DNA of 64,000 nucleotides from Curtobacterium sp. VKM Ac-1376 (GTDB taxonomy: Bacteria > Actinomycetota > Actinomycetes > Actinomycetales > Microbacteriaceae): NCBI RefSeq assembly GCF_015351025.1, contig NZ_JADKRV010000008.1, positions 1-64,000 of the forward strand, given 5' to 3'. The notes below the pieces were generated by a model. That model did no database searches. It was not told the DNA's origin and saw nothing but the letters and a program-made list of their open reading frames with translations. The translations under genes and the position numbers were made by a program. Numbering within the stretch: position 1 is the stretch's first letter; each line of letters opens with the position of its first letter. Shown here piece after piece: positions 18,746 through 33,338 of this stretch.

Positions 18746-19357
18746 TCAGGATGCCAGGAACGTCTCCCAACGGTCCCCGCCCGCGGCGACGTTGCTCGAA
18801 GCGGCGATCCGCGCGGCGGCGGAGGCCGGCTTCCGGTCAGCCTGCGCGTGGATCAGCCCGTCGAACGAGGCGGAGAAGTCCAGACGGGGCAGTGCCGCAG
18901 CCACCGCACGCAGGTCCGCCGTCGACCACCGGTCGAAGCCGACACCGGAGACGTCGAGCGAGGTCGCGACCTCGAGCAGGTGCCCCTCGGCGTCGAGCGC
19001 CGGGTCGACGGAGGTCCACATGTGCCGTTCGATGATCTCCCCGACGCGACGAGCACGCGTGGCGTCCCAGCCGGCACCGATCGCGAAGACGGAGCCGACG
19101 GCGCCGCCGGCCTCCTCGAAGGGCACCTGGTGCGCGTCGAACGACGGGGTGACGCCGAGGTCGTGGAGCATCGTCGCGACGAAGAGCAGCTCGGGGTCCG
19201 GCTCGAGGTCGACCGTCGGAGCGAGCAGGACCGCCCAGACCCACGAGCGCAGGCAGTGGTTGACCAGCGCCGGCGATGACCAGGCCCGCACGACGTCCAG
19301 TGCGCGCGCAGCGACGGGGGAGGGCGGGGTGAGCAGGGCTGCGACGTCGACCGACAT
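18746..19357 (-). CDS. HD-domain phosphohydrolase-like protein
   Basis: 203 residues. The HD motif reads F-V-A-T-M-L-H-D-L-G-V with an upstream His (L-V-N-H-C-L-R-S-W) and a later I-I-E-R-H-M-W, giving the His, His-Asp and His metal ligands of HD-superfamily hydrolases. Related proteins act as cyanamide hydratase-like enzymes; substrate here is unknown. Start ATG 19357 has TACTGT 6 nt upstream (19364-19369), the leaderless arrangement seen for neighbours. Followed on the minus strand by an unannotated 270-bp gap. Confidence 0.75.
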   Translation of the reverse strand: MSVDVAALLTPPSPVAARALDVVRAWSSPALVNHCLRSWVWAVLLAPTVDLEPDPELLFVATMLHDLGVTPSFDAHQVPFEEAGGAVGSVFAIGAGWDATRARRVGEIIERHMWTSVDPALDAEGHLLEVATSLDVSGVGFDRWSTADLRAVAAALPRLDFSASFDGLIHAQADRKPASAAARIAASSNVAAGGDRWETFLAS

Positions 19358-19446
19358 GGCACGACAGTAGTGGCAGGGACGAGCCGCGCCGGACTGGTTC
19401 GCGTCCCTTGAACAGGCATACGTTTCAAAGGGCCTGACCACAAGCA

Positions 19447-19486
19447 GACGGGAGGCGCGGCACCAGCTGGTGCCGCGCCTCCCGTC
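19447..19486 (-). terminator. 40-bp perfect palindromic terminator
   Basis: A perfect palindrome centred between 19466 and 19467 (half begins GACGGGAGGCGCGG). It lies 11 nt beyond the stop of the minus-strand PEP-mutase-family gene and shares the GGGAGGC start of the window's terminator family. Confidence 0.8.
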
Positions 19487-19497
19487 CGTCTCCTGGT

Positions 19498-20274
19498 TCA
19501 GTTCAGGGTCGGGGTGTCCTCCGGCACGACGCCGTCGGCGTACAGGTCGGTCGCCAGGTCACGGAGCGCGCGCAGCGCGACCCGCTGTGTGAGCGGGCCG
19601 TACGAGATGCGGGCGACGCCGAGCGCCTCGTACTCGGCGGCGGGCAGGGCGCCGGGCAGACCGATCACCGACAGCTTGCCGCGGCCGAGACCGGCGACGA
19701 GCCGCTCGACCACGGAGCGCTCGATCGCGCCGGGCACGAAGACCAGGGCGGCGCCGTTGTCCAGGAACGCCTTGCCGCGGGCGATGGCGTCCTCGATGCT
19801 CTCGTCGATCGGGCGCTCGCCGCCGCGCACGATCGCGTCGGTGCGGGCGTTCAGCTGGAAGTCGACGCCCTCGGCCTGCGCGGCAGCGGTGATCGCGGCG
19901 ACGCGGGCGACCGCCTCGTCGAAGGGACGCAGCCGGTCCTCGACGTTGGCGCCCACGATGCCGGAACCGATGGCGCGGCGGATCGTCTCGGCGGGGTCCT
20001 CGTAGCCGTCGTCCAGGTCCGCGGTGACCGGCAGGTCGGTGGCGGCGGCGACGATCGCTGCCCCGGACAGGGCGAGGTCGAGGGGCATGCCGCCGTCCTC
20101 GTACCCGTAGGACGCGGCGATCGAGTGCCCGGCGGTGGCGATCGCCTTCGTGCCGGGCAGGTCGCTGACGACCTTGGCGGTGATCGCGTCCCACACGTTC
20201 ACGACGCGGAGGATCTCGGGGGCCTCGTGCAGCTGCTTGAGGGTGACGGCCTTGTCGGCGGTGCTCGTGCTCAT
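19498..20274 (-). CDS. Isocitrate lyase/PEP mutase family enzyme
   Basis: 258 residues, alpha/beta barrel of the ICL/PEPM superfamily. N-V-W-D-A-I-T-A, A-T-A-G-H-S-I-A-A-S-Y-G-Y, the metal-binding D-L-D-D-G-Y motif, G-A-N-V-E-D and F-Q-L-N-A-R-T-D-A are all visible. The signature K-K-C-G-H of isocitrate lyase is absent, so this is a PEP-mutase/carboxyphosphonoenolpyruvate-like C-C lyase of unknown substrate. ATG 20274 has TACTGT 7 nt upstream, supporting a leaderless start; an extension of 151 codons upstream would overlap the divergent aminotransferase gene and shows no similarity. Confidence 0.8.
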   Translation of the reverse strand: MSTSTADKAVTLKQLHEAPEILRVVNVWDAITAKVVSDLPGTKAIATAGHSIAASYGYEDGGMPLDLALSGAAIVAAATDLPVTADLDDGYEDPAETIRRAIGSGIVGANVEDRLRPFDEAVARVAAITAAAQAEGVDFQLNARTDAIVRGGERPIDESIEDAIARGKAFLDNGAALVFVPGAIERSVVERLVAGLGRGKLSVIGLPGALPAAEYEALGVARISYGPLTQRVALRALRDLATDLYADGVVPEDTPTLN

Positions 20275-20386
20275 GCTGCCGACAGTAGGCCGACGGGGCG
20301 GCCCCCGGCCGCGAGCCCGCCCGAAGACGACGTGGGATGACGTCGGGACTCGCGCCGAGCCTCCAGGCGGGGGCATGCTGGGACGC

Positions 20387-21574
20387 ATGGCGAGCGACGA
20401 GCAGGACCCGGTCGGCACGCTCCGCGGGGTCCGGACGAGCATCAAGTGGACGCGGTACGCGCCCGACGTGCTGCCCCTGTTCGTCGCCGAGATGGACCAC
20501 GACGTCGCGCCGGAGATCCGGCAGGCCCTGATCGAACGGGTCTCGCAGTCCGACCTCGGGTACCTCGACGGCCCCGGGCCGCTCGCGCCGGCGTTCGCGC
20601 AGTTCGCGCTGGACCGCTGGGGCTGGCAGATCGACCCGTCACGCATCCACCTGGCCACCGACGTCAGCGTGGGGATCGTCGAGTCGCTCCGGCTTGCACT
20701 GCCCGACGGCGGCCGCGTCGCGATCACCCCGCCGGTGTACCCGCCGTTCTTCGAGCTCGTCGACGAGGCCCGATGTCAGGTGGTCGAGGTCCCGCTGCTC
20801 GAGCAGTGGGGGCAGTACCGGCTCGACCTCGAGGGGCTCGAGCGGGCGTTCGCCGGCGGGGTCGGCGTCTTCCTGCTCTGCAACCCGCACAACCCCGTGG
20901 GGCTCGTGCACGACCGGGCCGACCTCGTCGCGATCGCAGAACTGGCCGCGAAGTACGACGTCCTCGTCATCAGCGACGAGATCCACGCGCCCCTGACCCA
21001 CCCCGGCGTGCAGTTCACCCCGTTCGCCGCCGTCGCCGAACCGCTCGGGGCCCGGAGCGTGTGCGTGACCAGCGCCAGCAAGGGGTGGAACCTCGCCGGG
21101 GTGAAGTGCTCGGTCATCGTCGCCGGCGATCCCCGGACCGCCGCGCTCCTCGACACCCTGTGGGAGGAGGTCGCCTGCCGCACGAGCATCCTCGGGCTGC
21201 ACGCGAACCTGGCGGCGTTCACGCTCGCGACGGACTGGCTCGACGACGTGGTCGCCCGGATCGTGGCCAACGACCGGCTGCTCGCGAAGCTCCTCGCCGA
21301 GCACCTGCCCGGTGTGGTCTACACGCGGCCCCGAGCTGGGTACCTGGCGTGGCTCGACTTCCGGGGGATCGGCCTCGGCGACGACCCGGCCGTGCCGCTG
21401 CGTGAGAACGCCTACGTCGCACTGAACTCCGGGCTCGGCTTCGGGTCCGAGGGACGCGGGTTCGTCCGCCTCAACCTGGCGTGCTCACCGGAGACCCTGC
21501 GCGAGGCCGTGTTCCGGATCGCCTCGGCGTACCCGTCGAGTGCGCAGGAGGGGCTGGTCTGGCACGTCGCCTGA
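20387..21574 (+). CDS. MalY/PatB-type PLP aminotransferase (cystathionine beta-lyase-like)
   Basis: 395 residues, fold type I. F-V-A-E-M-D-H-D-V-A-P and G-Y-L-D-G-P near the N-terminus, C-N-P-H-N-P-V-G, I-S-D-E-I-H-A-P-L and S-A-S-K-G-W-N-L-A-G with the PLP lysine at residue 232 are the MalY/PatB signature. Members cleave cystathionine or similar C-S bonds and may transaminate. ATG 20387 is preferred to the ATG 12 nt earlier and to an open frame extending 84 codons upstream into the divergent gene, because the family begins just before the T-S-I-K-W segment. Confidence 0.87.
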   Translation: MASDEQDPVGTLRGVRTSIKWTRYAPDVLPLFVAEMDHDVAPEIRQALIERVSQSDLGYLDGPGPLAPAFAQFALDRWGWQIDPSRIHLATDVSVGIVESLRLALPDGGRVAITPPVYPPFFELVDEARCQVVEVPLLEQWGQYRLDLEGLERAFAGGVGVFLLCNPHNPVGLVHDRADLVAIAELAAKYDVLVISDEIHAPLTHPGVQFTPFAAVAEPLGARSVCVTSASKGWNLAGVKCSVIVAGDPRTAALLDTLWEEVACRTSILGLHANLAAFTLATDWLDDVVARIVANDRLLAKLLAEHLPGVVYTRPRAGYLAWLDFRGIGLGDDPAVPLRENAYVALNSGLGFGSEGRGFVRLNLACSPETLREAVFRIASAYPSSAQEGLVWHVA

Positions 21575-21615
21575 CCGGCGCGTGCCGGTGACGCGGCCCG
21601 GAGGCCCGCGTCGGC

Positions 21616-22212
21616 TCAGGCCGGTCGGGGCGCTTCGATGAGGTGGCGCGTCGAGTGCGCTAGGAACGGTCCGTCCTGCTGGATCAGCTCGTGCAGGTCC
21701 AGCAGACAGTCGCGGTTCCGCTCGACGGTGAAGTCCGGCTCACATCAGAGCACCTTGCGGAGCAGGTAGTCCACCGCGGCGACGTCGTGGATCTCGATCA
21801 GGGTCCGCGCGGTCCGCAGTTGGACGACCCCGAGTCCGGCGGCGCGTGCTGCGTCGGCCTCGTCGTCGTGGTGCCCTCCGCGCCGCTCGGGGGGGGGGGG
21901 GCTTCGGGCCGAGGAAGAACTCGATCAGCTCGAAGACGCTCGCGGGTCCGACGTGCTGCGCGGAGTACGTGCCACCGGGAGCGAGGACCCGGACGATCTT
22001 GTCCCAGTAAATCGCAGCTGGGTCTCGGCTCGTCACGAGGGCGAAGGCGCCGTCGGCGAAGGGCAGCGGCGGCTCGTCCTGATCGACGACGACGACCAGG
22101 CCGCGGGGGTGCAGGAGTCGTTTGGTAGTCGCGACGTTCGGTGGCAAGGACTCCGTCGCCACCGTGGTGGCTGGGAACGTCGGCGCTTCGGCGAGGACCT
22201 CCTCACGCCGAC
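21616..22212 (-). pseudogene. Truncated, frameshifted SAM-dependent methyltransferase
   Basis: Minus-strand remnants of a class I methyltransferase: E-V-L-A-E-A-P (about 22200), P-P-N-V-A-T-T-K-R-L-L, P-F-A-D-G-A-F-A-L-V-T-S-R and V-L-A-P-G-G-T-Y, then a C13 tract (plus-strand G13 at 21889-21901) shifts the frame. In the next frame the gene resumes G-G-H-H-D-D-E-A-D-A-A-R, meets a TGA at 21745-21747 and continues D-F-T-V-E-R-N-R-D to H-S-T-R-H-L-I-E-A and a stop at 21616. The motif I region (L-D-x-G-T-G-G-G) is missing, so the 5' end was cut off near 22212 where the lower-GC island starts. Three lesions make this a dead gene. Confidence 0.85.
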
Positions 22213-22297
22213 GACGAGCGGAACACCAGCTGCCTACTGACCGTAACCCAGGAGCGGAACACCCATACCTGAGTTTGTGAATATCGCACACCAACGG

Positions 22298-22326
22298 TTG
22301 ACATGTTGGGTACTACGTTCCAGGCT
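22298..22326 (+). promoter_or_regulatory. Promoter of the YcaO island
   Basis: TTGACA (22298-22303), 17 nt, CAGGCT (22321-22326). The perfect -35 box and ideal spacing make this one of the best vegetative promoters in the window. Transcription would start near 22333, leaving about 90 nt of leader before the small ORF at 22424. Confidence 0.65.
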
Positions 22327-22423
22327 GATCGAAGTCACGCATGCTTCAGCGAACGAATGTCTCTGTTGCCGGCGCTGGCCCACGAGGGATGCGCCCGCGT
22401 GGTGAACCGAGAAGGAGAGTCTG

Positions 22424-22507
22424 ATGAAAACGACCATTTTGGCGCCCAGGACCAACAACACGTTCGTTGGTCGGCAGGCGAAGAACAGCTACGGGCCCTC
22501 GCAGTAA
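22424..22507 (+). CDS. 27-residue peptide, candidate precursor
   Basis: M-K-T-T-I-L-A-P-R-T-N-N-T-F-V-G-R-Q-A-K-N-S-Y-G-P-S-Q, stop TAA. A strong ribosome site GAAGGAGAG stands 6 nt before the ATG, and the TTGACA promoter lies about 100 nt upstream. It ends 25 nt before the YcaO reading frame. Position, size and signals fit a ribosomally made peptide precursor, but it has no cysteine and only a few Ser/Thr to serve as cyclisation sites, so the role is uncertain; it could also be a leader peptide. The ORF is too short for usual gene finders. Confidence 0.45.
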   Translation: MKTTILAPRTNNTFVGRQAKNSYGPSQ

Positions 22508-22532
22508 ATCTGGAAATTGAGCGCGAGCGGGC

Positions 22533-24051
22533 GTGCCGAAGGCGGGCTTCGCGACGATCGGTTTGATCGAGAAAGACTGGTCGACCGGATGCCCCGAGTG
22601 CTTGCGATCCCGAGTCCGCGGGATCGATTACTTCTACCACGGTCTCGCGGCTGAAACTTTCGACGCTGATTTTGCTCGGGAGGTCGTGGCGCTCATGTAC
22701 CGCGAATACGGCGTCGCGGTTGCTCTTACCGAAGCGTACGACCCGCAGAACTGGTCGGTGATGCTGCCCGTGCCCTTCTGCTCAGTGTGTGGCGGGATCG
22801 ACCGACAGATCGACCGTGTCGCGTTCTGGAGCGCTTCCGGCACGATCTCAAGCGATCGTCCGGTCGGCGAGTCGACCGCGGGGTTTCGAAATACATCTCC
22901 CGACGAGTTCGTCGGCCGCAATCGGGCTGCGATCGGGTTTGCTTCAGCAATCGGAAATCCGGTCGCAGTTGAAACCGCGTTGGCTTGCTCGCTGGTGAAC
23001 GGCCCAATCCTCATGTCGGACGATCCGGCACGGCATGAGGTCGCCGGGGAAGGGTCCCTCGCTGGAGCAGAGCGTTGCGAGTTGTCTTGGGGAAGGGCTT
23101 GAACGCTACTTCACTGCGCGGCCGTTCCGAGACCGCTCGCTCGTGGCCACGCGCGAGCAGCTCGGGTCGGAGGCAGTGGATCCGTAGGTTGTGTTCGGCT
23201 TCCCAGCAATCGATGACACCGATGGGGTGCAGCGGTACCGACCTGACCTCTCCATCGAATGGGTCAGAAGCGAGGACCTGGTTTCGGGAGCTACGAAGTG
23301 GTTCCCAGCGAACCTCGTCTTCTGCCCGTACATGCCGCCGCCAGGAGCGTCGACGATATCGACGGGTAGCACCAACGGCGCGGCGTGTGGCGCGACGCGT
23401 CAGGATGCCACCCTCCAGGCTTTGCTCGAGTTGGTCGAGCGAGACGCGTTTTGGTACTACTCACGGACGGGTTTCGCTCCCTTGGGCATTCCGGAGTCGC
23501 AGGTGCCCGCCGACGTCCTCGAAGCCATGCGCCGGTACCGAGGCGTATTCCACGTGCAGCTTCTGGTGAACCCATTCGACCTTCCCGTGGTGCAGGTGGC
23601 CTACGAGTCAAACGGGCATGAGGCCTCAGCGACTGCTCGAGGCACTGGAGTGACTGGCTCACTTGAGCTGAGCATTCGTCGTGCGTTCACGGAATGCATC
23701 CAGATGCTCGAGTCGCTCTCGAGCGGTCAAGCCGTTGGAGAGTGTGTCACTGACATGCGGCGATTGTGGTTCACGGGTGAGGCTCGCGACGCTTTCCCCC
23801 AGTTCTTCGAAGCGGTGGACACGGCGGCAGAGGTCGAAACCGACACGTCGGATTTCAAAGCTTCTGGGGAACTGTTGTCGCACATCGTCGGTCGAGCGCG
23901 GACAGGGTTTGGACGTCTACGCCGTTTGGCTTGGGCAGGCCAGACGTTCGGATTGGAGTACGGGATCATCATCTCGGGAGTGTTGTACATGGCGATCGCT
24001 CTTCTCGTCGGTTCTGGCGAGGGCTGGCGGCGGATCGAAGTGAAGGAATAA
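22533..24051 (+). pseudogene. YcaO-domain azoline cyclodehydratase, broken
   Basis: Fragments of a fused leader-binding/zinc region and YcaO domain, as in linear azol(in)e peptide clusters. Frame 1 (22533-23046) holds G-C-P-E-C and F-C-S-V-C-G-G, a likely tetrathiolate zinc site. After one extra G near 23046-23049 the next frame reads G-K-G-P-S-L-E-Q-S-V-A-S-C-L-G-E-G-L-E-R, the classic YcaO ATP-binding motif, meets TAG at 23185, and continues with G-S-T-N-G-A-A-C-G-A-T and L-L-E-L-V-E-R-D-A-F-W. Near 23900 the frame shifts again (E-R-G-Q-G-L-D-V-Y-A-V-W-L) and once more near 23935 (P-D-V-R-I-G-V). At least four lesions; clearly lower GC than flanks. The TOMM assignment is from the YcaO motifs; the zinc region call is inference. 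Confidence 0.75.
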
Positions 24052-24053
24052 TC

Positions 24054-24587
24054 GTGAACGGAAGACCTGCGGCAGAATGGCGGCCGATCTTCGCTGCTCT
24101 TGCCAATGACGACATGCGACGCGTGTACTCGGAGGTGGTGCTTGAGCGCGCGCCGATTGTGGACCCGACGGTTCAGCAGTCGGCACGGACCCGACGAGCG
24201 CTGGAGGCGCTGCGTCGCATCGGGCTCATCGAAGAGGAAGACGGCGTGTTGGTCGCGCGCAGCGATCCCTTCTCCAACGCGCTGCGCACCCAGGCTCCCG
24301 ACAGACCGGACGGCATCGGCCGGTTCTTGCGTGACGGGAGGATCGTGCAGTATCCGGCGCGCCCGTCAGATCGGATGGAGATCCTGCGGTGGGTGGCCGA
24401 CCAGGCGCTGGAAGAGGGGGAGACGCTCAGCGAACAAGCGGTCAACGCGCGGCTCAGCGCGTTCCATGACGACCCTGCGACACTCCGCCGGTACCTGGTC
24501 GACGCCGGGCTCGTCGATCGAGACCGTGCCGGAAGTGCGTACAAGCGCATGCCCACGGTGTGCGCGACAAGGAAGAGGCGACGGTGA
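24054..24587 (+). CDS. DUF2087 domain protein with N-terminal winged-helix
   Basis: 177 residues from GTG 24054 (AAGGAAT 6 nt upstream). The N-terminal 75 residues (I-F-A-A-L-A-N-D-D-M-R-R-V-Y, A-L-E-A-L-R-R-I-G-L-I) read as an ArsR-like helix-turn-helix. The C-terminal half is DUF2087: F-L-R-D-G-R-I-V-Q-Y-P-A-R, L-S-E-Q-A-V-N-A-R-L, then D-D-P-A-T-L-R-R-Y-L-V-D-A-G-L-V-D-R. Probably a transcriptional regulator. The frame is open back to 23931 because the decayed YcaO region runs into it. Intact, unlike the gene before it, and coupled to the next gene by a GTGA overlap. Confidence 0.78.
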   Translation: MNGRPAAEWRPIFAALANDDMRRVYSEVVLERAPIVDPTVQQSARTRRALEALRRIGLIEEEDGVLVARSDPFSNALRTQAPDRPDGIGRFLRDGRIVQYPARPSDRMEILRWVADQALEEGETLSEQAVNARLSAFHDDPATLRRYLVDAGLVDRDRAGSAYKRMPTVCATRKRRR

Positions 24588-24796
24588 GTCGTCACGTCGT
24601 ACGTGCTGAACGCGGCGGGAAGTACTGGGTCATCTCGATCGACGGCATAGTCCGAACGCAGGCGAAGCGCGAGCGCGAGATCGAGGTCATGGCCCGAGAC
24701 TGGCTCGCGTTGATGAACGAGCGCGATCCTGAGTCGTTCGAGCTCGAGATAGATGTGACGCCCGCGCGTGCCGCAGGAGGTCGCTTCTCCCGCTGA
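24584..24796 (+). CDS. Small HicB-like protein
   Basis: 70 residues: G-G-K-Y-W-V-I-S-I-D-G-I-V-R-T-Q-A, then R-E-I-E-V-M-A-R-D-W-L-A-L-M and F-E-L-E-I-D-V. The beta-beta-beta-alpha-beta pattern resembles the partial RNase H-like fold of HicB-type antitoxins, but no HicA toxin is next to it. GTG start overlaps the DUF2087 stop by 4 bp. A relative of similar size and pattern (24827, minus strand) converges on it. Confidence 0.55.
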   Translation: MSRHVVRAERGGKYWVISIDGIVRTQAKREREIEVMARDWLALMNERDPESFELEIDVTPARAAGGRFSR

Positions 24797-24826: not shown

Positions 24827-25012
24827 TCAGGCCACGTACTGGTTGCGGCCGACGACGCGGATGCGCAGATCGTCGTCGCGGTCCATCGCGAGGAGCTCGC
24901 GGGCCACGAACCCGACGGACGGCCACCGGGACACCTCGGTCACCATGAAGCCGTCGATGAACACCTGCCACGCGCCGGCCTCGCGGACGGCCTGCACCTC
25001 GTACGTCGCCAT
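24827..25012 (-). CDS. Small HicB-like protein, convergent paralogue
   Basis: 61 residues: A-G-A-W-Q-V-F-I-D-G-F-M-V-T-E-V-S, G-F-V-A-R-E-L-L-A-M and L-R-I-R-V-V. The layout parallels the 70-residue protein at 24584 (W-x-V/I-x-I-D-G, then a helix ending A-R-x-L-L/A-A-M, then a strand), so the two are probably related. Function unknown. It seems to mark the right edge of the lower-GC stretch. Confidence 0.5.
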   Translation of the reverse strand: MATYEVQAVREAGAWQVFIDGFMVTEVSRWPSVGFVARELLAMDRDDDLRIRVVGRNQYVA

Positions 25013-25039
25013 GCCGCGAGCGTACCGGGACCGGGCCGC

Positions 25040-25090
25040 CGTCAGTGCAGGTCGAACGTCAGTGCAGGTTCAACGTCAGTGCAGGTCGAG
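25040..25090. repeat. Three 17-bp tandem repeats at the end of the GNAT gene
   Basis: Units start at 25040, 25057 and 25074 (CGTCAGTGCAGGT plus four variable bases). The third unit is the last codons and stop (D-L-H-stop) of the acetyltransferase, so its coding tail has been copied twice downstream. Confidence 0.8.
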
Positions 25091-25564
25091 GGTCATGTGC
25101 ACGTCGGCGCGGACGTAGGGGCTCGGGATGAGTTCGTCCTCGCGCAGGTGCCGGAACCCGAACGACTCGTACAGGTGCACGGCGCTGGCGAGCTGCGCGT
25201 TGCTCTCCAGGTCGATGCGGCGTGCGCCGAGCTCGCGGGCCCGGTCGAGCGCCGCGGTGATGAGCTTCCGACCGGTGCCGTGGCCCTGGTGGTCGGGGGA
25301 GACGGCCATCTTCACGAGCTCGAACACGCCGGGGGTGGTGGGCACGACCCCGATGCACCCGATGACCCGGTCGTCGAGCCGGGCGACCAGGACGGCCCCG
25401 CCGCGCTCGACGACGCGTCCGACGGGGTCGCCGAGGAACACACGGTCCTCGTCCTCGAGCGTGAAGAACCTCGTGATCCACGCTTCGTTCAGCGCGCGGA
25501 AGGCGTCGGCGTCTGCGGGGGTGGCGAGGTCGGCGATGGTGACGGTGGAGGTCGCTTGGGGCAT
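25076..25564 (-). CDS. GNAT-family N-acetyltransferase
   Basis: 162 residues. Acetyl-CoA-binding motif A reads K-M-A-V-S-P-D-H-Q-G-H-G-T-G-R-K-L-I, close to the Q/RxxGxG/A consensus, followed by L-E-S-N-A-Q-L-A-S-A-V-H-L-Y-E-S-F-G-F, the usual motif B ending. Acceptor substrate unknown; many such proteins acetylate amino groups of small molecules. Divergent from the LysR gene with 68 bp between starts, so the regulator may act on it (inference). Confidence 0.85.
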   Translation of the reverse strand: MPQATSTVTIADLATPADADAFRALNEAWITRFFTLEDEDRVFLGDPVGRVVERGGAVLVARLDDRVIGCIGVVPTTPGVFELVKMAVSPDHQGHGTGRKLITAALDRARELGARRIDLESNAQLASAVHLYESFGFRHLREDELIPSPYVRADVHMTLDLH

Positions 25565-25632
25565 GCATCCATCCTCAGGTCACGATGGTGTCGCGTCCAA
25601 TACTCGTTCCCGCTGATCGATACGCTGGATGC

Positions 25633-26517
25633 ATGGATCGTGCACCGGACGTCGACCTCCGCCAGCTGCGGGCGTTCCTCGCGGTCGCTGACGAGCTGCA
25701 CTTCGGACGGGCGGCCGAGCGGCTCCGGATCGCCCAGCCCGCGCTGTCCCAGCAGATCCGCCGCACGGAGCGCGAACTCGGCGTCGACCTGTTCGTCCGG
25801 ACGAGCCGCAGCGTCGCCCTCACGGCCGCCGGCCAGGTGCTGCGGGGGCGTGCACGGTCGTTGCTCGGGCAGGTGCGCCGCGACCTCGACGAGACGGTCC
25901 GGGTGGGGCGGGGTGAGGCCGGCCGGCTCGACGTCGGGTTCGTCGTCTCCGCGCTGCCCCTCGGGCCGATCGAGCGCGTGCAGGCGTTCCGTGAGCGGTA
26001 CCCGCTGGTCCGGGTCGACCTGACCGAGGGCTACTCGTCGACGCTGCTCGCCCGGATCGTCCGGGGCGAGCTCGACCTGGCCGTCGTGCGCGACCCCGAT
26101 CCCGATCCTGCTGTCCGACTGCTGCCGTTCCGCTCCGAAGCGTTCGTCGCGGCCGTTCCACGCGGGCACCGCCTCGCTGATCGCACCACCATCCGGGGGC
26201 CGGAACTCGTCGACGAGCCGTTCGTGTTCTTCCCGGCGATCGCTGGTGCCCTGGCGACCGAACGGAACCTGGCGCCGGTCATCTCGGGAGGCCGTCGCCC
26301 GGTGATCGTGCAGGAGGCCACGACCTGGGCGACCGTGCTGCACCTGGTCGGCGTCGGCCTCGGGGTGACGGTCGTGCCCGAGAGCGCCGCGCTCGCCGCA
26401 CCGGAGACGGTGACGCTCCTGCCGCTCGAGGGCAGCGAGCACCGCAGCGAGCTTGCGTGGGCCATGCGCACCGACGACGACCGCGAGATCCTGCGCAACT
26501 TCGTCGCCGCGGACTGA
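25633..26517 (+). CDS. LysR-family transcriptional regulator
   Basis: 294 residues from ATG 25633. N-terminal helix-turn-helix (about 1-60): L-R-Q-L-R-A-F-L-A-V-A-D-E-L-H-F-G-R-A-A-(E) and A-Q-P-A-L-S-Q-Q-I-R-R; the remainder is the periplasmic-binding-like effector domain (L-D-V-G-F-V-V-S-A, G-V-G-L-G-V-T-V-V-P). TACGCT (25621-25626) lies 6 nt before the start, suggesting a leaderless mRNA and deciding against an in-frame GTG 16 codons upstream. Likely target: the divergent GNAT gene. Confidence 0.9.
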   Translation: MDRAPDVDLRQLRAFLAVADELHFGRAAERLRIAQPALSQQIRRTERELGVDLFVRTSRSVALTAAGQVLRGRARSLLGQVRRDLDETVRVGRGEAGRLDVGFVVSALPLGPIERVQAFRERYPLVRVDLTEGYSSTLLARIVRGELDLAVVRDPDPDPAVRLLPFRSEAFVAAVPRGHRLADRTTIRGPELVDEPFVFFPAIAGALATERNLAPVISGGRRPVIVQEATTWATVLHLVGVGLGVTVVPESAALAAPETVTLLPLEGSEHRSELAWAMRTDDDREILRNFVAAD

Positions 26518-26563
26518 CCGAGCGGACCGCGTGCGCGAACGGGAGCCGGGCGGGCGTCCTCGC

Positions 26564-26818
26564 TCAGCCGAGCGACAGGACGGGCGCCCGGTGGTCGCCG
26601 AGCTCGTCGACGTGCCACGGCCTCGCCCCGCGCAGCGTCAGCCCGAGCTGCACGAGCACGAACCCGACGTGCGGTTCGACGTCCGGGTCCCACGGCCCCT
26701 CGACACCCAGGCCGAACGCGCCGAGTTCGTCGTCGGCCTCGTCGCGCAGCGTCAGCCGCCAGAGTCCGTCACCGAGTTCCTCGACGACGGCCCAGCGGGC
26801 GTTGCCGAAGCGGCTCAC
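26564..26818 (-). CDS. 84-residue hypothetical protein coupled to the FBP gene
   Basis: From GTG 26818, overlapping the upstream stop by 4 bp (GTGA). Sequence features: S-R-F-G-N-A-R-W-A-V-V-E-E-L-G-D-G-L-W-R, then L-G-A-F-G-L-G-V-E-G-P-W-D and H-V-D-E-L-G-D-H. Acidic, soluble, no recognised family. Strict overlap and codon use like its neighbours support it as real. The tail codes S-L-G before the stop. Confidence 0.55.
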   Translation of the reverse strand: MSRFGNARWAVVEELGDGLWRLTLRDEADDELGAFGLGVEGPWDPDVEPHVGFVLVQLGLTLRGARPWHVDELGDHRAPVLSLG

Positions 26819-27297
26819 GCCGACTTCATGATGTCCGCGGTGAAGTTCTGCACGCGCTGGAGCAGCGAGGCGCCGCGCATCGCGATGGTCGCTGGTGGGT
26901 TCAGGTGCGGCGGTGCGGTGCGGATGAGCATCGAGCACCCGAGGTCCTCGCAGATGTAGGTGCCGATCGTGTTGCCGTTGCGTCCGGACTCCCCGGCGCG
27001 GGCGGCCGAGAACAGCCGCACCTGCGTCGCGGGCTGCGGCGAATGGCAGAACGAGCACATCGCGGCGATGCCGGGGCGCAGGGAGCCACCGGCGGAACGG
27101 ACGACGATGCCCACGGGCCGGTCGTCGATCCAGGACACGATGTACCCGCGGCGGGCGGCCTGCGGGTCGCGCCAGCCCAGGAACTCGCGCTCGTCCCACA
27201 GCATCTCGTGCAGGCCGGGGATCGGCAGCTGGGCGAGTTCGTCGGCGGTGGCGTTGACGAACGAGGATCGGATGTCGGCTTCGGTCAGTGGCTTCAC
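26815..27297 (-). CDS. FBP-domain (EF-G-binding, FusB/FusC-like) zinc protein
   Basis: 160 residues. The C-terminal half carries a four-cysteine treble-clef zinc site: M-C-S-F-C-H-S-P-Q and Y-I-C-E-D-L-G-C-S-M, with G-N-T-I-G-T-Y between, as in actinobacterial FBP-domain proteins related to fusidic-acid-resistance factors that bind EF-G. N-terminus M-K-P-L-T-E-A-D-I-R-S-S-F-V-N is typical. TAGGGT (27307-27312, minus strand) lies 9 nt before GTG 27297. Role in ribosome recycling is inferred from the family. Confidence 0.82.
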   Translation of the reverse strand: MKPLTEADIRSSFVNATADELAQLPIPGLHEMLWDEREFLGWRDPQAARRGYIVSWIDDRPVGIVVRSAGGSLRPGIAAMCSFCHSPQPATQVRLFSAARAGESGRNGNTIGTYICEDLGCSMLIRTAPPHLNPPATIAMRGASLLQRVQNFTADIMKSA

Positions 27298-27381
27298 GGT
27301 CCGCTCACCCTATGCCTCGCCCCCGACACGGTGGGTTCAGGACAGCCGCGTGGGCGACGGCGCGGTCTCGGATCGCCGCGT

Positions 27382-28119
27382 TCAGGACAGCCTGGAGGCG
27401 CGGATCGCCCCGAGCGCGCTGCTCCCGTCCGCCACCAGGACCGCCCGGCGCAGGGCGTCGCGGCCGACGCGTCGGGCCGCCGCGTCGTCCGCGGCGAACT
27501 CCACGAGCACGCGCGTCGACCGCACCATGGCGCGCGCACCGGGCACCCACGGGACCGCACGCTCGATGGATTCCGCGACCGCGACCGCAGCCGCGTGGTG
27601 CTGGGTCAGGTGGGCGCGTTCGTGGGCGACCACGGCCTCCAGTTCGTCGGTGCGCAACCGGTCTGCCAGGCCGGTGCTCACGAGCACGCCGCCGCTCCGG
27701 CCCGGCACGGCGCACGCCAGTGCGTGGTCGGCCTCGACGACGGCGACCGGGGTGCCGTCGATCTCGCGGTGCGGGGCGACGCCGGACCGCATCGCCTGGC
27801 GGACGGCCTCGTGCTCGGGGCCGGGGCGGACCCGCACGGCGACGACGAACGCGATCACTCCGAGCACCGCGACCCAGACGTTGAAGCCGTGCGTGGGGGA
27901 GCCGTCGCCGCCGAACAGCTCGGTGACCGGACGGTCGGCGAGGACGACGAGGGCTATCCCGGCGATGAACCCGACGACGCCGAGCAGCACCGCGACCGAC
28001 CAGCAGACCAGGGCCGTGCGCGGCAGGTCGATCGTCCAGGCGGAGCGGGTCAGGACCCGGGGCGCGAACCCGACCACCGCCAGGGCGAGGACGATGAGCG
28101 CGATGCCGGCGACGACCAC
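27382..28119 (-). CDS. M56-family membrane metallopeptidase (BlaR1-like)
   Basis: 245 residues. Three N-terminal membrane segments (about 2-18, 38-62, 82-97), then the zinc-protease motif V-V-A-H-E-R-A-H-L-T-Q-H-H, and a short soluble tail. It lacks the penicillin-binding sensor domain of true BlaR1. It follows a BlaI-type repressor by 13 nt, the standard pairing in which the protease triggers loss of the repressor. GTG 28119 has no good ribosome site. Confidence 0.85.
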   Translation of the reverse strand: MVVAGIALIVLALAVVGFAPRVLTRSAWTIDLPRTALVCWSVAVLLGVVGFIAGIALVVLADRPVTELFGGDGSPTHGFNVWVAVLGVIAFVVAVRVRPGPEHEAVRQAMRSGVAPHREIDGTPVAVVEADHALACAVPGRSGGVLVSTGLADRLRTDELEAVVAHERAHLTQHHAAAVAVAESIERAVPWVPGARAMVRSTRVLVEFAADDAAARRVGRDALRRAVLVADGSSALGAIRASRLS

Positions 28120-28574: not shown

Positions 28575-28607
28575 CTGGGCGGACAACTGAACACACCGGC
28601 CGCTCAT

Positions 28608-28850
28608 CCGTCGCGGGAGACGCCGTGCACGTGCCCCCGGGTACGTCGTGCCTTCGGGTACACCGTGCCCCCGGGCGCACGCACGGCACCGAAGGAGCAA
28701 TCCCCCCGTCAATCTCTCAGGTCCCACACCGCAGCGGACAGGCCACTCTGAAAAGCAGACGCTCGGTCGTCTCGCCCACGGTGAAAGCCGCCGGACCTCA
28801 CGGGCCGCGGTGAAACTCTCAGGCCCATGACAGAGGGGGAGTTCCACCCG
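28608..28850 (+). ncRNA. Tandem glycine riboswitch
   Basis: Two glycine aptamers before gcvT. First: GCGGGAGACG ... CACCGAAGGAGCAA ... AATCTCTCAGGTC ... GGACAG ... CTCTGAAAAGC. Second (from about 28762): CACGGTGAAAGCC ... GCGGTGAAACTCTCAGGCC ... GACAGAGGGGGA. The A-A-G-G-x-G-C-A-A, CTCTCAGG and GACAGAG blocks are the conserved glycine-binding core. Arm GCCGTGC (28622-28628) / GCACGGC (28681-28687) in aptamer 1 is enlarged to 66 nt and built from three 17-nt repeats starting at 28631, 28648 and 28665. Glycine binding normally turns gcv expression on. No separate terminator hairpin is evident. Confidence 0.9.

Positions 28851-30420: not shown

Positions 30421-33338
<2,918 letters not shown>

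Follow-up and report, generated by a model that had tools for sequence, protein, structure and literature searches.

Pieces of a YcaO protein lie in one short region of the Curtobacterium sp. VKM Ac-1376 genome (3.77 Mb in 61 contigs), and the question raised by this locus is which kind of peptide-modifying system they come from and how they came to be broken. The window (the whole stretch of DNA analysed, 64,000 nucleotides) corresponds to bases 1–64000 of contig C60. A sequence-only reading had taken the region for a decayed azoline-peptide (TOMM/LAP) locus inserted into a methyltransferase gene. From the observed anatomy, homology, clade membership and decay it is read here, with considerable confidence, as a recently decayed small RiPP module whose YcaO belongs to a clade apart from the azoline formers, a non-azoline chemistry centred on Gln being favoured. 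The features of the window are collected in Table 1.

Table 1. Features of the decayed module and its surroundings (positions are those of the window)
Feature	Position	Strand	Remark
Methyltransferase 3' remnant	21740..22206	-	5' end lost at island start
Low-GC island with decayed RiPP module	22207..24564	+	Gap in homology to L064
Promoter element TTGACA-17-CAGGCT	22298..22326	+	Common to G026 as TTGACA-17-CAGACT
Ribosome-binding site AAGGAG	22412..22417	+	Read from sequence; 6 bases before precursor ATG
Intact precursor gene, 27 residues, 84 bases, MKTTILAPRTNNTFVGRQAKNSYGPSQ	22424..22507	+	Likeness to G026
YcaO synthetase remnant, first part with CxxC pairs	22533..23046	+	L014 homology from window 22542
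YcaO catalytic part, other frame	23047..23910	+	PF02624; TAG at 23185-23187; C-terminal tail missing
MFS exporter C-terminal remnant, 38 residues	23926..24039	+	Residues 336-373 of L014's 374, E=2.5e-5
Intact DUF2087 gene, 177 aa	24054..24587	+	PF09860 78.7 bits, cut-off 22.4
Shortened neighbour gene, outside module, right edge	24560..24796	+	78 aa vs 126 aa in L064

Island, insertion site and decay

The G+C content of the island is 0.624 compared with 0.71–0.74 in windows at 19000–21999 and 25000–27499, in line with the lower GC already noticed from the letters. Its start at the point where a methyltransferase lost its 5' end was likewise borne out by comparison with locus L064 of genome G042, to which the remnant is 87.8% identical in nucleotides over window 21500–22206 and in which the methyltransferase gene is intact (261 aa) and continues beyond the window's remnant. 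Homology to L064 ends at ~22206 and restarts at ~24565. After the methyltransferase in L064 come a HicA-like gene (sub-threshold at 23.3 bits, cut-off 27) and then a small gene with sub-threshold Pfam matches only, and the gap thus shows that the island took the place of the methyltransferase 5' end and the HicA-like gene. The remnant itself scores 18 bits against Methyltransf_11, below the cut-off of 21.2. A run of about 11 G lies within it at 21889–21901, where the frame is lost relative to L064; this is either an assembly error or slippage.

Twenty same-genus loci were compared around the conserved aminotransferase and LysR genes. The methyltransferase is present in two of them (L064 and L074), and the neighbour gene at the right edge, whose window copy has no Pfam match, is matched at >60% identity in five (tblastn). 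As for an intact cluster at the same site in related strains, which the earlier reading had looked to, the cluster does exist intact in a relative (G026, below), whereas none of the 20 site loci holds YcaO or DUF2087 pieces there by tblastn. This comparison, the L064 homology gap and the comparison with G026 agree with the earlier view that the region was acquired and then broken. We read the neighbourhood as one of apparently high gene turnover. Between the island edges no direct repeat of at least 8 bases and no inverted repeat of more than 8 bases was found, so no insertion mechanism is named; nor were relatives found among phage records and viral contigs, and hence no sign of phage carriage. 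Elsewhere in the window, tandem glycine riboswitch aptamers at 28604–28843 are ordinary, and a tRNA predicted by ARAGORN at 33093–33170, with a two-base unreadable anticodon, is probably spurious.

When fragment 23191–24051 was searched against 66 same-genus genomes, six matched, own genome included, and G026 was the best match. The gene order of its locus (L014) is precursor MKSSLLAPKSNAVFAGRQAKNSYGPSQ, YcaO synthetase of 590 aa, MFS protein of 374 aa and DUF2087 protein of 177 aa. The precursor and DUF2087 genes of the window had been omitted from the sequence-only reading. The precursors of window and G026 are identical in their final 12 residues and at 19 of 27 positions overall, with synonymous differences between their codons (pS 0.54, dN/dS 0.19). 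The promoter proposed from the sequence alone is present, and the same kind of element (TTGACA-17-CAGACT) sits ahead of the G026 precursor gene; TTGACA occurs three times in the 64 kb on both strands, and a stricter promoter scan (at least four of six bases per hexamer) found no promoter at the position of the element.

The first part of the synthetase, from which an N-terminal portion is missing, has 59% amino acid identity to L014 over 167 codons and ends at the frame change that had been placed near 23046. In the catalytic part the YcaO domain, for which a profile search had been proposed, matched PF02624 at 23047–23790 with 151.1 bits (cut-off 25.7). The one TAG within it is also confirmed, and identity to L014 is 69% before and 66% after this codon. 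The GKG, EGLERY and ELVERD motifs are all present, as are two CxxC pairs, in which three of the four Cys do not vary among the 10 relatives of alignment A2 and the remaining one occurs in 9 of them. What had been proposed as frameshifts near 23900 and 23935 is more plausibly the junction of two genes, the residues at 23926–24039 being the C-terminus of an exporter; the transporter that had seemed to be absent belongs to the intact cluster and survives in the window as a remnant. The window DUF2087 protein is 52% identical to its 177 aa homologue in L014 (dN/dS 0.35) and, by analogy, is likely a regulator of the module.

Relative to G026, the window lacks ~200 bp (~67 codons) near the 5' end of the synthetase gene as well as the last residues of the synthetase (at least 50) and the first ~335 residues of the exporter. 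The precursor, the promoter element and the DUF2087 gene were kept intact. The sequence-only reading had allowed that the gene might be live if the apparent shifts were sequencing errors. Such an error could account for the frame change and, separately, for the TAG, the assembly is in 61 contigs, and an 11-base G run lies nearby (~21890). Losses of ~0.2 kb and ~1.2 kb spread over two genes are, however, hard to ascribe to sequencing error, and an intact synthetase in the cell is scarcely credible. Values of dN/dS between window pieces and G026 were 0.10–0.35 where computable, which suggests that selection acted on these pieces through most of their past and that decay came late. The survivors might instead have been retained as useful, for example for protection against producing neighbours: the DUF2087 gene, the promoter and the precursor are intact while the synthetase and exporter are ruined. 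The same picture is expected from recent decay alone, the more usual immunity factor, the exporter, is lost, and BtmL, a characterised DUF2087 protein, is a transcriptional modulator (PMC7113386), so that retention for immunity or regulation is considered unlikely. Recent decay is the preferred reading, and the window shows a module in the course of loss in which regulator and precursor outlast the synthetase.

The G026 module lies on the opposite side of a small conserved gene compared with the window. A single acquisition in the genus ancestor is disfavoured, as synonymous difference between window and G026 is 0.54–0.79 in the module and 0.34–0.43 in the flanking aminotransferase, GNAT and LysR genes (the small gene, with 7 codons aligned, was left out of the comparison). 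In the control pair L016/L017, at another site, the values were 0.49 for the module and 0.40. The higher module difference and the opposite positions favour two separate insertions, a case weakened by saturation and lower GC3. L016 and L017 adjoin the same oxidoreductase gene in opposite orientations, a second site with turnover. A second decaying member was found in G057 (L015, 8952–10430), where an in-frame loss takes GGKG and most of the ExxER region from the synthetase while its LFM tail, the precursor and the exporter are all kept.

A family of thirteen loci

Synthetases of the window's kind were found in 13 loci: the window, L014 (G026), L015 (G057), L016 (G062), L017 (G041), L051 (G188), L083 (G1252), L054 (G752), L011 (Salinibacterium soli), L013 (Actinomyces haliotis), L012 (a Bathymodiolus gill symbiont) and two plasmid loci, L055 (Enterococcus faecium pGR17, CP033377) and L049 (Levilactobacillus brevis pBRV479). 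The hosts thus comprise Actinomycetota, Bacilli plasmids and a gammaproteobacterial-type symbiont. The Bacilli members are distant (20% identity to L014), and the E. faecium synthetase is annotated as hypothetical. PF02624 was above cut-off in the window and in L014, and in alignment A2 (10 relatives, L015 being left out for want of GGKG) the GGKG, ExxER and QxxxExxER motifs are invariant.

An upstream precursor-like gene, with a predicted start codon, is present in 12 of the 13 loci; one was looked for in L049 and not found. Precursors of intact members are 26–43 residues long. Seven of the 12 (window, L014, L011, L054, L013, L012, L055) carry a Q[AS]K[NQS][SA]Y core (K type) and five (L015, L016, L017, L051, L083) a TRQAGGY core, the spacing of the two types differing by one residue. 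In K-type precursors the core falls within the C-terminal half, and in L015–L017 it lies 17–18 residues in, ahead of a C-terminal extension; L051 and L083 both carry tandem cores, TRQAGGYT-TRQAGGYT. L083, the thirteenth locus, was read only after the motif had been seen, and fitted. Gln, Tyr and a small residue after Gln occur in all 12 cores.

An MFS gene lies directly downstream in 11 of the 13 loci (recognised by reading in L015 and L083), in L049 one gene later, after an arginase-family gene, and in the window as the remnant. DUF2087 genes are near in 8 of the 12 loci tested, a set from which L083 was left out: they were identified by Pfam in the window, L014, L016 and L055, by tblastn in L011 and L054 and by reading in L015 and L017, and were not found in L012, L013, L049 or L051. 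Two more genes, both hypothetical, accompany the pGR17 module (L055/L057); Lant_dehydr_N weakly matches one of them (24 bits, cut-off 28), which may point to added dehydration chemistry. On pBRV479 the YcaO, the arginase-family protein and the MFS gene are flanked by two IS30 copies; the arginase-family protein may be a peptide arginase that modifies Arg.

Judging from the low match counts, the module is rare and its distribution patchy. Strong matches (E at most 1e-40) were obtained in 4 of 398 genomes of the bacterial-family sample (next match 2.2e-23), 2 of 396 of the order sample and 1 of 394 of the class sample (own genome only), these overlapping samples each including the own genome, and in 2/28, 1/3 and 1/27 genomes of three member genera. 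Within the genus, five of 66 genomes have members, own genome included, and a sixth, G054, matched weakly (1.7e-6). A degenerate DNA pattern of the core, run over 60 genomes, found only the window's own precursor; its reversed control gave 4 matches, so the pattern is too unspecific for counting members. The core strings RQAGGYG, RQAKNSY, QSKNSYG, RQSKQSY, QSKSSYTG and RQAGGYTT were absent from 5.39 million open papers, a search that did not extend to subscription papers and supplements. The family appears to be a small, hitherto undescribed YcaO RiPP module, missed by curated models and with precursors mostly too short to be called as genes.

Clade and predicted chemistry

The assignment of the locus to azoline peptides (TOMM/LAP) was not supported. 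Such a locus, in which the YcaO would close Ser or Thr into oxazolines, accounts for the YcaO and CxxC features; the window and G026 cores have two Ser each, and a weak TIGR03882 match (21.2 bits, cut-off 36.9) was obtained for window part 22533–23102. The 12 precursor cores, however, have no Cys, Ser or Thr in common: six of the seven K-type precursors have Ser before Tyr, and all five of the RQAGGY type have Thr two residues before Gln. With a hydroxyl nearly fixed in each type, one precursor type may still yield azolines. All eight synthetases scanned fell below the cut-offs of both TOMM models, with 82.1–174.3 bits on TIGR03604 (cut-off 219.25); on TIGR03882 L014 alone matched (16.5 bits), with the CxxC pairs conserved. 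No dehydrogenase was recognised when the intact loci were read by eye.

The synthetase tails and the tree point the same way. Each of the 12 synthetases that retain their tail has LFM, LFT or LFS at its end, and none has the PxP that stands in the last nine residues of 24 of 26 other YcaOs from the bacterial-family search; the window synthetase has lost its LFM. Enzymes with a PxPxP tail form imidazolines in daptides (PMC12338566), and the tail therefore indicates kinship without proving chemistry. A maximum-likelihood tree (39 rows) places 11 synthetases together with window fragment 23191–23910 on one side of a 100/100 branch, and the fragment pairs with L014 (support 100/98), the window row filling 32% of columns, several rows being of unusual composition and L083 being left out. 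The two core types track the main split among actinobacterial members. By its place in this clade, its intact precursor and its MFS remnant the window is a member of the LF[MTS] modules, and an azoline origin of the locus is distinctly unlikely.

A second YcaO of the own genome, on contig C23, is intact (253.4 bits against PF02624) and exceeds the cut-offs of TIGR03604 (260.6 bits) and TIGR03882. It is PxP-tailed and belongs to a separate intact azole-type cluster (L003, G000:C23, 2971–13695) with a fused Lant_dehydr_C and SagB-type dehydrogenase and, recognised by reading, an ABC-type permease and a large LanB-like protein. It was ruled out as parent of the remnant. A Helicobacter plasmid YcaO was set aside, as a SagB dehydrogenase and an ABC transporter adjoin it, and it corresponds to the published helicobactins.

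YcaO enzymes act by activating backbone amides, and new branches have tended to bring new chemistry. In the scheme favoured for the LF[MTS] clade, every biochemical step of which is a prediction, the zinc-bearing N-terminal part of the fused synthetase would bind the 26–43 residue precursor, and the YcaO domain would use ATP to activate a backbone amide within the Q[AS]K[NQS][SA]Y or TRQAGGY motif. From its conserved ATP-site motifs and Cys pairs the enzyme would bind a leader, use ATP and modify the backbone, and the same motifs together with core conservation suggest ATP-driven amide activation. Since Gln and Tyr, besides the small residue after Gln, are alone in being common to all cores, a Gln-centred, non-azoline chemistry is favoured in which the invariant Gln would take part, its side-chain amide perhaps being the nucleophile. 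Judging from the tandem cores, the unit acted on would be TRQAGGYT within the chain. The MFS protein, by its pairing with the synthetase gene, would export the product, and the DUF2087 protein may tune expression as BtmL does in bottromycin. The module would have entered beside the methyltransferase gene; with its synthetase and exporter then destroyed, no product is expected in the window's strain. An AlphaFold2 model of the Salinibacterium soli synthetase, made from a three-row alignment, was poor (mean pLDDT 43.5).

In place of a Gln-based ring, the YcaO may make a thioamide or a macrocyclic amidine of the kind known from thioviridamide-type peptides or bottromycin. Neither product needs Cys, Ser or Thr, the two Bacilli members (L055 and L049), which also exceed the cut-off of TIGR00702, the generic YcaO model, have their highest score on TIGR03266, a model for McrA thioamidation, and DUF2087 is also encoded in the bottromycin cluster. 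Against this, reading of the ORFs next to the intact synthetases revealed neither a TfuA gene nor a protease, and the tandem internal cores of L051 and L083 speak against use of a free N-terminus; this alternative is possible, though on the doubtful side. With similar reserve, it is only tentatively suggested that the LF[MTS] clade is a RiPP class with unprecedented YcaO chemistry, an ATP-driven ring formed through the side-chain amide of the invariant Gln on precursors of ~26–43 residues.

The broken copy is ordinary in itself, and the interest lies in the family, a seemingly new YcaO branch with very short precursors, an invariant Gln-to-Tyr core, no common heterocyclisable residue and an LF[MTS] tail. 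As the pathway seems to consist of one precursor, one enzyme and one exporter, it would be easy to test.

Comparison with known systems

The family resembles TOMM/LAP systems in having a fused synthetase, with a YcaO and a putative leader-binding part, beside a short precursor gene, and differs in its LF[MTS] in place of PxP tail, its MFS exporter, its scores below the curated cut-offs and its lack of a family-wide Cys, Ser or Thr. The trifolitoxin core has Arg-Gln beside small residues, carries a Cys and works with TfuA; the Arg-Gln likeness is one of description, and the Cys and TfuA set it apart. The bottromycin precursor begins with its core and continues as a follower peptide, and the pathway uses two stand-alone YcaOs, whereas neither an N-terminal core with follower nor a pair of stand-alone YcaOs was seen in the family. 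The likeness here lies in the DUF2087 gene of the cluster, found in 8 of 12 family loci, whose bottromycin protein BtmL raises transcription of the precursor gene (PMC7113386).

Streptamidine-type amidine RiPPs are likewise actinobacterial YcaO RiPPs with cores poor in Cys, Ser and Thr. They have stand-alone YcaOs and precursors of 31–89 residues sharing ALV, and the model cluster encodes ABC transporters, a hydrolase and a dehydrogenase (PMC8442711). By contrast, ALV is absent from the 12 precursors on reading, and export would be by an MFS protein. Mobilisin, also actinobacterial, pairs a fused cyclodehydratase with a short peptide that has few Cys, Ser and Thr, and is described with B, C and D proteins, hence with a dehydrogenase (PMC4603692). 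Its likeness to the family and its difference are both by description.

For the spyrimidone peptide-nucleobase hybrids, a YcaO complex is said to form a ring through an Asn side-chain amide, reportedly needing a dehydrogenase and both Asn and His in the precursor. This Asn-derived ring would be a precedent that makes a ring through the Gln amide of the present family conceivable.
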